Source: Emergencia sp. 1XD21-10 (GTDB lineage Bacteria; Bacillota; Clostridia; Peptostreptococcales; Anaerovoracaceae). Taken from it: a stretch of DNA of 64,000 bases. Made by a program: the position numbers and the translations under genes. Position 1 is the first letter of the stretch; every line of letters begins with the position of its first letter. Positions 6,269-57,393 of this stretch are shown here, one piece after another. The notes under the pieces were generated by a model. That model saw nothing but the letters and a program-made list of their open reading frames with translations, was not told where the DNA came from and made no database searches. The stretch lies in contig NZ_QWEQ01000005.1 in assembly GCF_009936045.1 (NCBI RefSeq), positions 124,001 to 188,000 on the forward strand, given 5' to 3'.

Positions 6269-7629
6269 TAATTTTCACCTTCTTCAAAGCCTATAACCGC
6301 TCCATAAGGATTCTTTAACGACAATTCCCTTCTGCTTCCAGTTATAACCCATAAGTTTCGATATGTCAACGGTTTCGGAATCTTATTTTCACCGTATCCA
6401 TCAGTAAAATATATTAACAGGGAATCTCTATAATATTTATTCCTATTCACATACTCTATCACCGGAGTAAAGGCAGTTCCACCACGTCCTGCAACGTCAT
6501 ATTTTACATCACTTGGCTGTTTTACAGTATAAATTCGCTGTATCTCACTGTCACACTCAATTACAGTAATGCAATAATTCTTTTTTGACAGAATTGAAAA
6601 CAACTCATTAAAAATTAAAGAAAGCTCTCTCCCGGTAACAGATGCGGAAGTATCAATTGCCACAACAATCTTTAATATCTTATCATTTATCTCCCCGGAC
6701 AAATCATATCGCTCTGGTTGTCTGCGATTTAATCTAGCTTTCGTTTTACGTTTTCCTGCTGCAATTGTCCCTATATACTTTTTCAGAATTTTTTTCCACG
6801 ACAACTTAGCCGGTTCATTTACTCTTCTTACCTGCTCCAAAAAGTAAGCCGGCATAAGGTTTCTGGTTTCGTCATCCATCATTTCCGCTGCCGCATTAAT
6901 AAATTCACCAACGATAGCAGTTATTTCATCAACATCGTCACCAGCTTCCCAGTTATGATCCTCATATCTATCACACTTCCCCTCTGTGATAAACTCATCA
7001 GAATCTGCACCTATGCCATTTTCTTTACCGTCAGGTAAATCTTTTTCCTCAATAAGCTGATAATAGTAATAATAGCTTTCCAGCGGCGCTACAGTTCTTA
7101 AACCGAACATTTTTTTAAGAGTCTCCGGTAAAATACACTTTTCCCAGACAGTCATAAATAACCGATGTTCAGCCTTAATCTCATATCTTAGTCGGCCATT
7201 GACCGAAGCGTCCGCTGCAAGATTAAATTTTGCATGAGTCTTCTCATCTCCCATCGGGTTACATTTTACCATCTCCGAGGGGTGATTCAGTATAATATGC
7301 TCAATTTCATGACAAATGATAAAGATAATTTCTTTCAGCGTAAGTTTGCATAAAAGTAGTGGATTAGACACCATTACCAGAGGATAAACATTTAACTTGA
7401 TACCTGCAATAGTATTGCTGTAAAAATCAACTTTGAATGACAAATTCATCATAAAATAGCCGTAATAACTATCCCTTTCAGAAATCAAGAACAACTTAAT
7501 TAATTCCATAAACTCATGAAAATCATTTTCAATTTCATTTAAAATTGCATCTTCAATAATACCATTTTCCACTGCTGTTATATTATCTTTAATTCTATAT
7601 AAGTATTCAACAATCGTATTGGTTGCCAT
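6268..7629 (-). CDS. DUF2201-type putative metallopeptidase with VWA-like domain
   Basis: 453 aa. The N-terminal half carries a zinc-protease signature HEIEH (107-111) inside IIFIICHEIEHIILNHP. The C-terminal 135 residues form a von Willebrand A-like domain with a MIDAS site: DTSAS (326-330), the GRGGT Thr (about 385) and TDG (about 409-411). This is the DUF2201 arrangement. Proteins of this kind pair with MoxR-type AAA ATPases, where the VWA protein acts as adaptor or substrate binder. Here the start overlaps the MoxR stop (TGATG) and the end overlaps the HNH start, so all three are made together. All metal-site residues look intact. Confidence 0.88.
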   Translation of the reverse strand: MATNTIVEYLYRIKDNITAVENGIIEDAILNEIENDFHEFMELIKLFLISERDSYYGYFMMNLSFKVDFYSNTIAGIKLNVYPLVMVSNPLLLCKLTLKEIIFIICHEIEHIILNHPSEMVKCNPMGDEKTHAKFNLAADASVNGRLRYEIKAEHRLFMTVWEKCILPETLKKMFGLRTVAPLESYYYYYQLIEEKDLPDGKENGIGADSDEFITEGKCDRYEDHNWEAGDDVDEITAIVGEFINAAAEMMDDETRNLMPAYFLEQVRRVNEPAKLSWKKILKKYIGTIAAGKRKTKARLNRRQPERYDLSGEINDKILKIVVAIDTSASVTGRELSLIFNELFSILSKKNYCITVIECDSEIQRIYTVKQPSDVKYDVAGRGGTAFTPVIEYVNRNKYYRDSLLIYFTDGYGENKIPKPLTYRNLWVITGSRRELSLKNPYGAVIGFEEGEN

Positions 7630-52716: not shown

Positions 52717-55060
52717 TCACCTCCCCCTCTGTAGTCTTCGGCAGCTGTGCACTCTGGGATAGACCTCCCAGTTCCTTTTCCGAAAGCTGAGAACTTGCAA
52801 TCTGCCTGTAAACCTCACAGTTTCTCATCAATTCCTCGTGGGTTCCCTTGCCCACAATTTCTCCATCGTCTAATACCAATATCTGATCTGCATGAAGTAT
52901 GGTGCTGATACGCTGCGCAACCACAATCTCCGTCGCATTTTTAACTCTGTCAGCCAGCGCTTTGCGAAGCTTTGCATCAGTTTTCATATCCAGAGCAGAA
53001 AAGCTGTCGTCAAAGACGAAAACCTTTGGATTCTTTGCAATGGCTCTTGCAATAGCAAGACGCTGCTTCTGTCCACCGGACACGTTGCTGCCGCCCTGGG
53101 CGATATAGCTGTCAAATCCCTCTTCTTTCTCTGCGATAAAATCCGCTGCCTGCGCGATTTCTGCTGCCGCTTTGATTTCTTCATCAGTAGCCGAAACCTT
53201 GCCAAAGCGAAGGTTAGAAGCAATGGTTCCAGAAAACAGAACCCCCTTCTGCGGTACAAAACCAATTTCCTCACGCAGTTCGTGCAAAGCCAGTTCCCTA
53301 ATATCTACACCGTCTAAGGTAATTTCTCCTTCCGTCACATCATAAAATCTTGGAATCAGATTTACCAACGTCGATTTTCCAGCGCCGGTACTTCCAATCA
53401 TAGCTGTCACCTTGCCCGGCTCCGCTTTGAAACTAATATGATGCAGCACGTCTTCCTCTGCGCCCGGATAACGGAAGCTGACATTCTTAAATTCCAGCAC
53501 GCCTTTGTGCTCTTTCAAAGCCTTCGGTTCTTCCGGCTCCCCAATAGAGGATTTTGTCTGAAGCACTTCATCGATACGTTCTGCAGCAACGCCAGCTCTT
53601 GGCAACATAATGGACATCATAGTCAACATGAGGAAAGACATGACAATCAGCATGGAGTAAGTAATAAATGCTGTCATATTTCCCACCTGCAAATCTCCGC
53701 TGTCGATTCTCTGTGCGCTGACCCACATAATCAGAATGACCAGACAGTTCATAATTAACATCATGCCCGGCATCATAAAAGTCATCACCCGGTTGGTAAA
53801 TAGCTGCGTTTTCTTCAGATTCTCATTGGCAACATCAAAACGCTCTTCTTCGGTCTTTTCTCTGCCAAAGGCTCGAATAACTGAAAGACCTGTCAAAATC
53901 TCTCTGGAAACCAGATTTAGATTGTCGACCAGTATCTGCATGAGTTTGAACTTCGGCATTGCAATAGAAACAAGCAGAAGCACAAATCCCAAAATCACAA
54001 GGACAGCCATCGCGATAATCCATCCCATGCCGGCACCGGTTTTTGCCACCTTATAAATGCCGCCTATGCCCAAAATCGGCGCATAAAGCACCATTCGAAG
54101 CATCATAGTAGTTACCATCTGAATTTGCTGTACATCGTTAGTACTTCTGGTAATTAGCGATGCAGTAGAAAATTTATCAATTTCTCCATTGGAAAATCCG
54201 ACTACATTCTTAAATACCTTGCCACGCAGGTCTCTGCCGACTCCTGCGCCGATTCTTGCAGCCAGATAGGAAGTGCAGACCGCTGCCGCCAGCATAAGCG
54301 CTGCCATGAAAAACATGCGAAACCCTGCACGCCAAAGATAGTCAGTCTGTACTTTCTCCATGTCGATACCTGCTGCCTCATTGCAGGAGGCAGCATAAGC
54401 AATCCCCATAGACTTTAGAGTATCTTCGCCTACAGAGGTAATCATTTCCTCCATAGAGGTTCTGGCATTTCTGATGGCTGTCTCGTCCATCTGTCCTTCT
54501 GCAATCATACGCTCCATCAGAGGACGCATGTCAACATAAGTCGACACATTCCCTTCTTCATCTTCCGCCTGAAAGCTGTCAATATCGGTGCCCATGAGAG
54601 TTTCAATCTCCTCGATAGACATATCGTCTATTTTCGATTCCAATTCTGCCATCTGTGGATTCTGAGAAACCGCCTCTTTGATAGTATCTTTAAAGTCGCC
54701 TTCGCGCATGTGACCCAACTGATAAGTCAGCGCTACAGCGGTTATCAGCTTCTCGTCGACTTCTTCTAGAACCTTTTCATCCTCTGCATTCAGTCTGTAA
54801 TCGGCACCGTCCTCTACATAAATCTCATTCCACAGTACCGCTTCCTCTTCTTCCATAAAAACTTGCGCTTCACGAAATTCCTCAGCAGTGATTCTCTCTG
54901 GGGCGATATGCTCCACTCCCTTTCCTGTAATACCAGTATCTATAATATCTGCTGTGTACTGCGGCAGCGCCAGATCACAATAGGCCTGCACCGTAAGCAG
55001 CAGCACAATCAGAAGCACAGATTTCCAGTACGGAATTATGTTCCTAAAAATTCTCTTCAT
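52700..55060 (-). CDS. ABC exporter half-subunit A with large extracellular insert and degenerate ATPase site
   Basis: 786 aa. TM1 (VLLIVLLLTVQAYCDLALP) is followed by an acidic insert of about 190 residues before TM2 (about 240), predicted outside, as in BmrD-type subunits. ATPase domain: GSTGAGKS, good signature NVSGGQKQRL, Walker B VFVFDDSFSALD with Asp instead of the catalytic Glu, and VVAQRIS with Gln in place of the switch His. So this subunit carries the non-catalytic site components and the pair works as an asymmetric heterodimer. Overlaps marR by 4 bp. Confidence 0.92.
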   Translation of the reverse strand: MKRIFRNIIPYWKSVLLIVLLLTVQAYCDLALPQYTADIIDTGITGKGVEHIAPERITAEEFREAQVFMEEEEAVLWNEIYVEDGADYRLNAEDEKVLEEVDEKLITAVALTYQLGHMREGDFKDTIKEAVSQNPQMAELESKIDDMSIEEIETLMGTDIDSFQAEDEEGNVSTYVDMRPLMERMIAEGQMDETAIRNARTSMEEMITSVGEDTLKSMGIAYAASCNEAAGIDMEKVQTDYLWRAGFRMFFMAALMLAAAVCTSYLAARIGAGVGRDLRGKVFKNVVGFSNGEIDKFSTASLITRSTNDVQQIQMVTTMMLRMVLYAPILGIGGIYKVAKTGAGMGWIIAMAVLVILGFVLLLVSIAMPKFKLMQILVDNLNLVSREILTGLSVIRAFGREKTEEERFDVANENLKKTQLFTNRVMTFMMPGMMLIMNCLVILIMWVSAQRIDSGDLQVGNMTAFITYSMLIVMSFLMLTMMSIMLPRAGVAAERIDEVLQTKSSIGEPEEPKALKEHKGVLEFKNVSFRYPGAEEDVLHHISFKAEPGKVTAMIGSTGAGKSTLVNLIPRFYDVTEGEITLDGVDIRELALHELREEIGFVPQKGVLFSGTIASNLRFGKVSATDEEIKAAAEIAQAADFIAEKEEGFDSYIAQGGSNVSGGQKQRLAIARAIAKNPKVFVFDDSFSALDMKTDAKLRKALADRVKNATEIVVAQRISTILHADQILVLDDGEIVGKGTHEELMRNCEVYRQIASSQLSEKELGGLSQSAQLPKTTEGEVNDSEE

Positions 55061-55536
55061 TCACTTTCCCCCTTCTTTTCATTATACTTTCGTTTTTCTA
55101 TTTCTATTTTGGAAGTTTCCACAAACTTCTGCAGGTAGTCGTTAAGTTTTTGCATGGTGTCTGCCCCCAAATTGCCAAACACTGCATCAGAGAATTCTTC
55201 CATAATGCAGTCTGCTTCTGCAATGCGCGCGATTCCTTTCTCCGTCACCTTAACAAAAGTATTACGCCGGTCTTTCTTATCCACATCACGCAGCACCAGT
55301 TCTTTTTCCTCCAGCACACGCAATGCTCTGGAAATAGCCGGCGGCGGCAGATGCATTTCTTTCACAATCAAAGAGACTTTCACCCCCCCTTGGTTGACTC
55401 CGCTGCACCTTTGACAGTGCTGTATCATCTTCAGCACACCAAGTTCCCCGTGACTGATGCCCGGCAGCATGCTGGAAAGATTCAATTTCCGAAAAGAATG
55501 CATGATATCAAAAAAATTTTTCTGTTCCTCTCTCAT
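55057..55536 (-). CDS. MarR-family transcriptional regulator
   Basis: 159 aa winged-helix protein: LPGISHGELGVLKMIQHC, the recognition helix region LPPPAISRALRVLEEKELV, and the wing DKKDRRNTFVKVTEKG. It is first in an operon with the ABC exporter genes, so it most likely represses them and responds to a drug-like ligand. AGGAGA precedes ATG. A palindrome in the leader fits autoregulation. Confidence 0.92.
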   Translation of the reverse strand: MREEQKNFFDIMHSFRKLNLSSMLPGISHGELGVLKMIQHCQRCSGVNQGGVKVSLIVKEMHLPPPAISRALRVLEEKELVLRDVDKKDRRNTFVKVTEKGIARIAEADCIMEEFSDAVFGNLGADTMQKLNDYLQKFVETSKIEIEKRKYNEKKGESE

Positions 55537-55634: not shown

Positions 55635-55684
55635 CAGGATTTTTGCACGTAAAATACCCACTGCAGATACGTTGAAACTACGAA

Positions 55685-55995
55685 GTTGTGCAAATCCATG
55701 CTTTTATTCGCCGAATGCACAACTACGCTACTGCAAAGTTGTGTAAATCCGATAAAGATTAATTTTTTTGCACAACTATCTCGTTAAAATTCTACTTGTC
55801 CGCAATTTTCTCTCACCCGAATTGTGCATTCATAATAAAATAGTTTGATTTTACTCAACTTCCTGCCGGAATTATATGATCTAAAAGAATAAGGTTGTGC
55901 AAAAACCTGTGTTCAGAAGCAAGATGCACAACCCATCATGACAACAGTTGTGCATAAGACAAAAGATAAGTCAGATTTGCACAACCGGGCACAAC
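55685..55995. repeat. Array of five 39-bp inverted-repeat units (GTTGTGCA-N23-TGCACAAC)
   Basis: Units at 55685-55723, 55738-55776, 55821-55859, 55894-55932 and 55947-55985. Each is exactly 39 bp; half-sites GTTGTGCA and TGCACAAC are perfect in units 1, 4 and 5, have one mismatch in unit 2, and are more decayed in unit 3. The 23-bp interiors differ. An extra half-site GGCACAAC is at 55988-55995. Start-to-start distances are 53, 83, 73 and 53 bp and half-site centres are 31 bp apart, all close to whole helical turns. Lies between the lysC terminator and the marR promoter. Confidence 0.85.
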
Positions 55996-56010
55996 ACGAG
56001 GTTTTGACAA

Positions 56011-56055
56011 CAAAAAACAAGGCGCCCCGTCCTTTCAGCTGACGGTTTTGCGCCC
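56011..56055 (-). terminator. Terminator of lysC
   Basis: GGCGC outer stem and ACCGTC / GACGG inner stem, then a T-rich tail (plus-strand A run 56012-56018), 25 bp after the lysC stop. Confidence 0.8.
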
Positions 56056-56079
56056 TGCAGTTTTCTAAATCGTTATTCG

Positions 56080-57393
56080 TTATACAAATGCCTGATAGAT
56101 GGCACGGATTGCCGTATCAAAGTCACGATTCTGTACTCCAACGATAATGTTCATTTCGCTGGAACCCTGATCGATCATTCTAATGTTAACCTCCGCTTCG
56201 GCAAGGGCTGTAAACAATGCCGCCGAAACGCCGCTTCTGCTGCTCATGCCGTGGCCCACTGTAGCAATGAGGGCGATATCCTCAAAAGTTTCCATGTGGT
56301 CAGGACTCAGCTGTTTTTCAAAAGCTTCCAGAAGTTCATCGAGTCGTCCGTCCAGACTTTTGTTGGAGACTACGACAGAAATGGTATCAATCCCGCTCGG
56401 CAAATGCTCAAAGTTGATATCCATATCCTCCAAGATTGCCAGGATTCTTCTGACAAAGCCTCGTTCACTGCTGAGCATATTTTTGTAAATCGCAATAACG
56501 GTAAAATCTTTACTGCCCGCAATGCCTGTTACAACATTTGTATTGCTTTCATCGTGCTCTGCCGTAATAATGGTTCCTGGATCCTCCGGCAAATTCGTAT
56601 TTCTAATGTTAATTGGAATATTTGCGATTCTTGCTGGATAAATCGCGTCTTCATGCAACACCGACGCTCCCATATATGAGAGTTCCCGCAGTTCTTTATA
56701 AGAAATCTTATGAATCGGCTTCGGATTTTTTACAATTCTCGGATCCGCCATCAGAAAACCAGATACATCCGTCCAGTTTTCATAAATATCCGCATCCACT
56801 GCTCTTGCCACCAGAGAACCTGTAATATCAGAACCTCCTCTGGAGAAAGTCCGCACCTTGCCGTCCTCTGCATTACTGCCATAAAATCCAGGAAGTACAG
56901 CCCTCTCATGTTTTGCAAGCTCTTTGCGAAGCGCTTCATCGGTCGCTTCCTGCATCAGTCTACCTTTATTATCAAATAAAATAAGCCCTTCAGCATCAAC
57001 AAAATCATACCCTAAAAAAGCTGCAATCAGTACAGCATTTAAATACTCACCACGACTTGCAATATAGTCAGAAGAGCAGCCCTTTTTCAGATTCTCTTTA
57101 ATGATATCAAAGTGCCCCTGCAGGTCAACGTTAACATTCAAATTCAGCTGAACCGCCATAAATCTGTCCGTAATAACCTGAAAAACCTGTTCATAAGGCA
57201 GGTTATGTTCCATATGAGTCTTGCACAGATACAAAAGATCTGTAATTTTATTGTCTCCATCAAAACGTTTTCCCGGTGCAGATACAACGATGTACTTGCG
57301 GTCAGGGTCTGCTTCGATGATTTGCTTCGTCTTCATCAGCTGGATTCCGTCAGCAACTGAAGAACCGCCAAATTTCGCTACTTTTATTCCCAT
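56080..57393 (-). CDS. lysC: Aspartate kinase
   Basis: First enzyme of the aspartate pathway (lysine, threonine, methionine, diaminopimelate). 437 aa: N-terminal kinase domain starting MGIKVAKFGGSSVADG, substrate block FSRGGSDITGSLVA, and two C-terminal ACT domains (about 305-437; IAIYKNMLSSERGFVRRILA, ATVGHGMSSRSGVSAALFTA) for feedback by an amino acid. No lysine riboswitch is seen in the short leader. Own promoter. Confidence 0.95.
   Translation of the reverse strand: MGIKVAKFGGSSVADGIQLMKTKQIIEADPDRKYIVVSAPGKRFDGDNKITDLLYLCKTHMEHNLPYEQVFQVITDRFMAVQLNLNVNVDLQGHFDIIKENLKKGCSSDYIASRGEYLNAVLIAAFLGYDFVDAEGLILFDNKGRLMQEATDEALRKELAKHERAVLPGFYGSNAEDGKVRTFSRGGSDITGSLVARAVDADIYENWTDVSGFLMADPRIVKNPKPIHKISYKELRELSYMGASVLHEDAIYPARIANIPINIRNTNLPEDPGTIITAEHDESNTNVVTGIAGSKDFTVIAIYKNMLSSERGFVRRILAILEDMDINFEHLPSGIDTISVVVSNKSLDGRLDELLEAFEKQLSPDHMETFEDIALIATVGHGMSSRSGVSAALFTALAEAEVNIRMIDQGSSEMNIIVGVQNRDFDTAIRAIYQAFV

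Follow-up and report, generated by a model that had tools for sequence, protein, structure and literature searches.

The window, the whole 64,000-nucleotide stretch of Emergencia sp. 1XD21-10 DNA that was analysed, carries an array of short inverted repeats between two genes of the minus strand, an aspartate kinase (lysC-like) gene upstream at 56080..57393 and a marR-family gene downstream at 55057..55536, the latter a neighbour that is not specific to such arrays. Specifically, the array consists of five GTTGTGCA-N23-TGCACAAC dyads at 55685-55985, to which no strand is assigned: three are exact, one has one change and one has three. Dyads 1 (55685..55723), 4 (55894..55932) and 5 (55947..55985) are the exact ones; dyad 2 (55738..55776) has one mismatch (GTTGTGTA), dyad 3 (55821..55859) is decayed, with three mismatches over both half-sites, and both have exact copies in the orthologous array of a relative (L036, described below). 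The half-sites start 31 bp apart within every dyad and successive dyads start 53, 83, 73 and 53 bp apart, which confirms the five-unit arrangement given in a preliminary description of this DNA. The same description listed an extra half-site behind the last unit, which is indeed present at 55988..55995 on the minus strand with one mismatch (GGGCACAAC); the sister species has CGGACACAGC at this place in L036, and because it does not keep the box, the half-site probably lies outside the array proper. Additionally, a terminator-like hairpin with a T-run, recognised by eye, follows lysC at 56012..56062 on the minus strand. The exact dyad pattern had no match in 100 dinucleotide shuffles of the window.

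The array had been noticed at this one locus, and its actual extent is wider. A genome-wide pattern search, proposed with the preliminary description, returned 35 exact GTTGTGCA dyads with N20-26 spacers in the Emergencia genome, against none for the reversed-pattern control, and these fall at 16 places, comprising 15 arrays and a lone palindrome (L011, N20). The arrays sit between the main called genes; at L013, L015 and L019 the array end overlaps the end of a called ORF by a few tens of bases, the ORF calls being simple ones. Their neighbours, named from Pfam matches, are unrelated to one another and include citrate lyase alpha chain (citF) with citrate lyase ligase (citC), 2-isopropylmalate synthase (leuA) with an aconitase-family protein (leuC), an aminotransferase V (IscS-like) with ThiI, SecA with 5-FTHF cyclo-ligase, and SHMT with a PlsX-like protein; elsewhere they are LysR, TetR, GntR and MerR regulators, MATE transporters, and aspartate kinase with MarR. 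When the nearest called genes are read by hand, none of the 15 arrays lies at a divergent junction. A preference for non-divergent junctions was rejected, since an automatic count over three families, which misjudged the window junction through a spurious plus-strand ORF and missed some arrays, found 3/25 divergent positions vs 10/63 background gaps (p=0.75). Four pairs of GTTGTGCA arrays have their members about 6 to 16 kb apart on one contig (C13, C34, C45 and C71), which by a rough estimate seems above an even scatter of 15. A known structured RNA was rejected after Rfam searches: the arrays of four loci stayed without a match up to E = 0.5, and the window had no match that reached a gathering score. 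A T-box leader-like match (L016:1996-2209, 60.8 bits, below the gathering score of 93) lies upstream of leuA and not on the array.

Among 13 genomes of the genus, exact dyads are found in the Emergencia genome (G000, 35), in G010 (49) and in G003 (7), and the remaining 10 have none; of 247 genomes sampled from the family, a draw that did not include G010, four have them. A three-box pattern scan of genome contigs recovered 19 stretches, of which an uncultured Eubacterium MAG contributed 12, Emergencia sp. SUG182 two and Mogibacterium kristiansenii one; three from Bacteroidales and one from Lacisediminihabitans were set aside as box clusters of other geometry. Viral contigs hold exact dyads in 18 stretches, none of which has the array layout; in one of them (L047) the boxes stand beside a repressor-like gene. 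A comparison of the marR-lysC junction across relatives, also proposed beforehand, places an orthologous array with the same layout in G010 (L036, intervals 53, 85, 74 and 53). G003, on the other hand, keeps marR (88% identical), lysC (97%) and the lysC hairpin but is missing about 360 bp, among them the array. The DNA that is present here and in G010 spans approximately 55650..56010 (edges by eye; no strand assigned), and the hairpin, kept in both relatives, stands outside it. Because G003 lacks these bases at the same junction, the array DNA is, as judged from the junction comparison, an insertion. The lysC-marR distance exceeds 1 kb in G002 and G011, and no GTTGTGCA boxes lie at lysC-marR in G008 and G009.

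The position of the array directly upstream of marR had suggested a link to the marR-ABC operon, with the boxes serving as an operator array through which the neighbouring MarR controls that operon. The link finds no support: 14 other arrays lie at unrelated genes, and the G003 junction does without the array, so that the operator is refuted as a general explanation and is now very improbable. MarR might bind at the window array, but with neighbouring genes this unrelated the arrays are not simply MarR operators.

The architecture was measured on 28 arrays, 15 from the Emergencia genome, 12 from G010 (loci from the three-box scan) and one from G003 (L024). This set leaves out L011, L021 (a single dyad), C90 and C246 of G010, the G003 remnants L020/L037 and L022, and L030 from Mogibacterium, as well as L023, L025, L026 and L031, which are the same places as L027 or L024. 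An automatic count gives five dyads in 19 arrays, six in 5, four in 3 and seven in 1, including weak overlapping matches in L013 (six) and L017 (five) and missing decayed dyads in L012 and L033. The logo of the 224 exact half-sites in these arrays reads aaaGTTGTGCAaat, and A/T bases are over-represented at half a helical turn from each box as well as in the A/T-rich middle of the dyad. Within arrays the boxes alternate in direction. Inward-facing box pairs less than 74 bp apart stand at 31 or 32 bp in 84 of 86 cases, a dyad span of nearly always three helical turns, and outward pairs up to 75 bp stand at 11, 21/22, 31/32, 40-43, 51-54, 63 or 73-75 bp. From dyad to dyad the spacing likewise amounts to whole helical turns, mostly 5 to 11. 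Among 13 periods tried, the forward-box intervals (78 intervals) fit best at 10.5 bp, with a resultant of 0.895. When the nine regular or tandem arrays are removed, the 96 intervals of the 19 irregular arrays have a real part of 0.87 at 10.5 bp (best 10.55), whereas the highest of 5000 random sets reached 0.28.

Certain layouts recur. In helical turns, the order 5,8,7,5 is found in the window, L007, L014 and L036, and the order 5,7,8,5 in L010, L040 and, with its weak match excluded, L013; related arrangements are 5,9,7,5 (L032), 5,7,9,5 (L038) and 5,7,10,5 (L042). A second layout, 6,6,6,6, is found in L005, L016, L019, L027 and L043. In the regular arrays L016, L027, L035 and L043 the interiors are repeated, which indicates growth by tandem duplication. 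This growth is all that speaks for chance or a decayed simple repeat as the source of the pattern, a reading that is refuted by the empty shuffles and reversed controls and by the phasing of the irregular arrays on their own, and whose probability we regard as negligible. The arrays share with phased protein-binding arrays the placing of their sites at whole helical turns.

The boxes are held in place while the interiors drift in two orthologous pairs of arrays. Between the window array and L036, 76/80 box positions are identical vs 159/221 interior positions (p=6e-6), with 417/467 in the flanks; between L013 and L040, the values are 67/71 vs 118/230 (p=3e-12), with 384/490 in the flanks. Here a box is one that is exact in either sequence, and the flanks are partly coding. 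Together with the 10.5 bp fit and the same layout in L036, these values support two suggestions of the preliminary description, that selection acts only on the half-sites and their phase, and that the array is bound by a protein, here a putative one, on one face of the DNA. The outcomes it had named as speaking against this, a phase that is not conserved in relatives or single copies scattered at random spacing, did not occur.

Two operon junctions, leuA-leuC and citF-citC, hold different words in different species. The leuA-leuC gap is about 20-70 bp in eight of nine relatives (G001, G002, G004, G005, G007, G008, G009 and G011) and about 500 bp in G003, where it carries GTTGACAA boxes. The citF-citC gap measures a few bases in three of seven relatives (G008, G009 and G011); G003 and G010 have GTTGTGCA arrays there, G002 has two ATTGAGCA-N23-TGCTCAAT dyads 63 bp apart, and G001 has another hairpin. 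The citF-citC arrays of G000, G003 and G010 share their flanks (82-85% on the best side, 73-75% on the other), and the arrays themselves hardly align. Conversely, the arrays L007 and L014 of the Emergencia genome are 78% alike over 308 bp between unrelated flanks, the likeness stopping at the outer boxes, and in G010 the arrays L035 and L043 are also alike. Copying and insertion of the elements are supported by these sequence comparisons. By eye, no target duplication was recognised at the empty site of G003 or in the array flanks. Mogibacterium and some members of the GTTGACAA family have terminal inverted repeats; for GTTGTGCA arrays the outer boxes are the sole such ends. A 70-bp stretch (L017 ~6387-6456 / L032 1745-1814), 96% identical between the Emergencia genome and G010 and accompanied by an inverted partial copy, belongs to another dispersed repeat.

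The GTTGTGCA word is one of several that are built into the same architecture. The Emergencia genome has two further box families, GTTGACAA and TGTGCATAT, and relatives use ATTGAGCA or TTCTAGAA. TTGACAA (GTTGACAA) dyads number 62 in G003, 26 in G010 and 25 in the Emergencia genome, with 0-2 in the others and 0-2 in controls; matches to the corresponding dispersed repeat, partly several per copy, number 72 in G003, 31 in G010, 30 in G000, 6 in G002 and 0 in G012, and an outer CACGGCAAAGGCATGAA-like motif is common to several copies of this family. The TTGNNCAA dyads of the ATTGAGCA family amount to 62 in G002 (control 1), 19 in G010 and 8 in the Emergencia genome, with at most 3 in the remaining genomes of 326 and at most 4 in controls. 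Two TTCTAGAA arrays were found in 220 kb sampled from G001, one of them with five dyads 52, 72, 52 and 52 apart when one-mismatch boxes are counted. The TGTGCATAT arrays of the Emergencia genome and G003 consist of paired dyads whose starts lie about 42, 93-114 and 42/52 apart (at most one mismatch); those at L195-L203 (C8, C34, C71, C82 and C104 of the Emergencia genome, and G003) mostly have four dyads in a 2+2 layout, and some have, by eye, a stem-loop-like stretch between the pairs. The TTGACAA intervals fit a period of 10.3 bp (real part 0.81) much better than 10.5 bp (0.44), TGTGCATAT fits 10.4 bp and TTCTAGAA fits 10.4 bp weakly (0.62), and the ATTGAGCA distances, being just 63 and 126 bp, distinguish no period.

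A de novo dyad scan of samples from G011 (93 kb), G008 (80 kb) and G059 (80 kb) returned no word clusters, and in a 200-kb sample of G012 it returned only an 89-bp tandem repeat with a conserved interior. The latter (L125:3083-3390) has four tandem units with a ATGTTTTC...GAAAACAT palindrome and is a plain tandem repeat outside the array class. Several further observations concern related patterns. In G002, eight tandem 62-bp units (L149:870-1353) bear GTTCGGCA boxes with start steps of 30, 12 and 20 bp, a satellite-like relative with another word. In Mogibacterium kristiansenii (G044), three TTCACGC dyads at distances of 95 and 104 bp stand within inverted ends ATATGCCTAGA...TCG recognised by eye (L134:12050-12420), and they may represent the array class in another genus. 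The same genome has hsdS-like genes around a tyrosine-recombinase-like gene (L064:1880-6479; named by eye). On either side stand 377-bp inverted repeats (96%) with a decayed GTTGTGCA element inside, and the locus resembles a phase-variable type I system. A TTG..CAA dyad with the common interior ATATCCCA.CTTG recurs across genera (G000:C13:8767, G059:C4:157235, G091:C39:71369 and G140:C20:116742) and is presumably conserved for a reason other than membership of the array class.

Dispersal between unrelated flanks, presence or absence at the same junctions, several word families per genome, and the longer inverted ends of Mogibacterium and of some GTTGACAA members (CACGGCAAAGGCATGAA-like) would all suit purely selfish miniature transposons, in which the boxes would bind a transposase or recombinase from a gene elsewhere and bring the host no benefit. 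However, orthologues keep their boxes while the interiors drift, which is unexpected of pure parasites, from species to species one and the same junction carries arrays with different words, and neither a parent element nor a target duplication was seen in the stretches read; on balance we think this reading unlikely, while granting it a real share of the probability.

The preliminary description had also offered a set of small hairpins. As a rival this would mean single-stranded DNA or RNA hairpins resembling REP, BIME or REPIN elements and moved by a Y1 (RAYT) transposase, and such hairpins are possible: the units are palindromic over about 39 bp, carry alternating boxes and are dispersed between genes, the TGTGCATAT dyads resemble long stems by eye, and RNA folding is better than in shuffles (z -7.6 for L036 and -3.7 for the window array). 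Such folding is itself expected of complementary boxes, and the hairpins leave the whole-turn spacing between dyads unexplained; moreover, the GTTGTGCA stems have just 8 bp around unrelated loops of 23-24 nt, and the logo has no GTRG head. Y1_Tnp matches occur in eight of the 13 genus genomes, seven of them over the cut-off, and the match of the Emergencia genome holds a stop. The Y1 proteins of G002, G003 and G005, which the classification covers (the matches of G001, G006, G009, G010 and the Emergencia genome fall outside it), are of the IS200 type, scoring 152-160 bits with that model (cut-off 55), and fail the RAYT model with 26-34 bits (cut-off 80). No clusters of boxes of the four words lie in the four Y1 loci read, where one lone TTGACAA was met in L164. 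With three Y1 proteins classified, a RAYT/REPIN partner is disfavoured on these grounds, and hairpins are a weaker rival, which we rate as improbable.

We therefore prefer, as the probable though by no means certain explanation, a class of inserted and dispersed elements that act as putative protein-binding arrays on one face of the DNA and are kept by selection on their boxes. The element would be an intergenic insertion of about 300 bp made of 8-bp boxes in dyads, usually five dyads or ten boxes, within a class of several families. Directional boxes at whole turns along hundreds of bases and the placement of A/T bases point to a protein that binds double-stranded DNA from one side. We propose that a putative self-associating, sequence-specific DNA-binding protein, one per word family, would assemble across the dyads on one helix face into a single nucleoprotein complex, which would probably bend or wrap the DNA, as the position of the enriched A/T bases would suggest. 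As mobile elements they may be non-autonomous, with the boxes serving as the recognition sites through which they spread. The conservation of the boxes at their sites suggests that the inserted elements may have a role there; the complex would act in cis at intergenic positions, and the boxes and their phase may be kept because of this action. An insulating or locally architectural complex between transcription units is, in our choice, the most likely such role. A wider form of this explanation, possible but tentative and in our view likelier to be wrong than right, is that the arrays are chromosome-wide mobile nucleoprotein scaffolds: protein families with words that change between species would place arrays at the same operon junctions, organising or insulating the chromosome, and what is inherited as a trait would be the number of dyads and their helical phase, with the sequence between them of no account.

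Dispersed repeats in bacteria are as a rule found through the sequence that their copies share. What is kept here is almost solely eight letters, which way they point and where they sit on the helix, and likeness-based repeat finders and alignments would therefore largely miss the arrays. If a protein does assemble on them, the arrays would offer a ready test system for the co-evolution of helical phasing, dyad number and recognition words, and for the effect of such arrays at the 15 places that one word alone occupies on a single chromosome.

A literature search returned no title or abstract describing such arrays; its matches were mostly unrelated, and the result is weak evidence of absence. 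BIMEs are clusters of short, alternating, palindromic REP units dispersed between genes, for which protein binding and a role in chromosome organisation and termination have been suggested (PMC2817692). The arrays resemble them in their alternating units, clustered between genes. They differ in that the GT(A/G)G head, which in REP adjoins a GC-rich palindrome, is absent from the half-site logo, in that the arrays share only 8-bp boxes with unconstrained interiors, helix-quantised spacing, mostly five units and several words per genome, and in that no RAYT is among the three classified Y1 proteins. REPINs are dispersed, non-autonomous units whose two conserved ends stand inverted to each other on either side of a less conserved spacer, the GI ends being 16-mers at a fixed 71 bp that form hairpins (PMC3116915). 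An inverted conserved pair around a variable spacer and dispersal are common to both; unlike REPINs, the arrays have 8-mers at 31/32 bp joined in phase, and mostly five dyads at variable whole-turn spacing take the place of a mobile unit of fixed distance. Bacterial MITEs are non-coding, intergenic, shorter than 500 bp and polymorphic in insertion (PMC10969869). Size, intergenic dispersal, insertion polymorphism and, in some box families, inverted ends recall them, but GTTGTGCA arrays have no common ends beyond a box and have internal phased boxes under selection, with no target duplication recognised and no parent IS met in the stretches read, the reading being unsystematic. Repeated sites are also assembled into one complex at F-plasmid sopC, Lrp-wrapped promoters and the ends of Tn7 or Mu; each of these is a single locus or the end of an element and has a protein of its own. 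Here, by contrast, one word has 15 dispersed loci, the word varies between species and the protein is putative. Given the absent REP head and the lack of a RAYT among the three Y1 proteins, we therefore file the arrays as a new form of dispersed intergenic element that would work like a phased protein-binding array.
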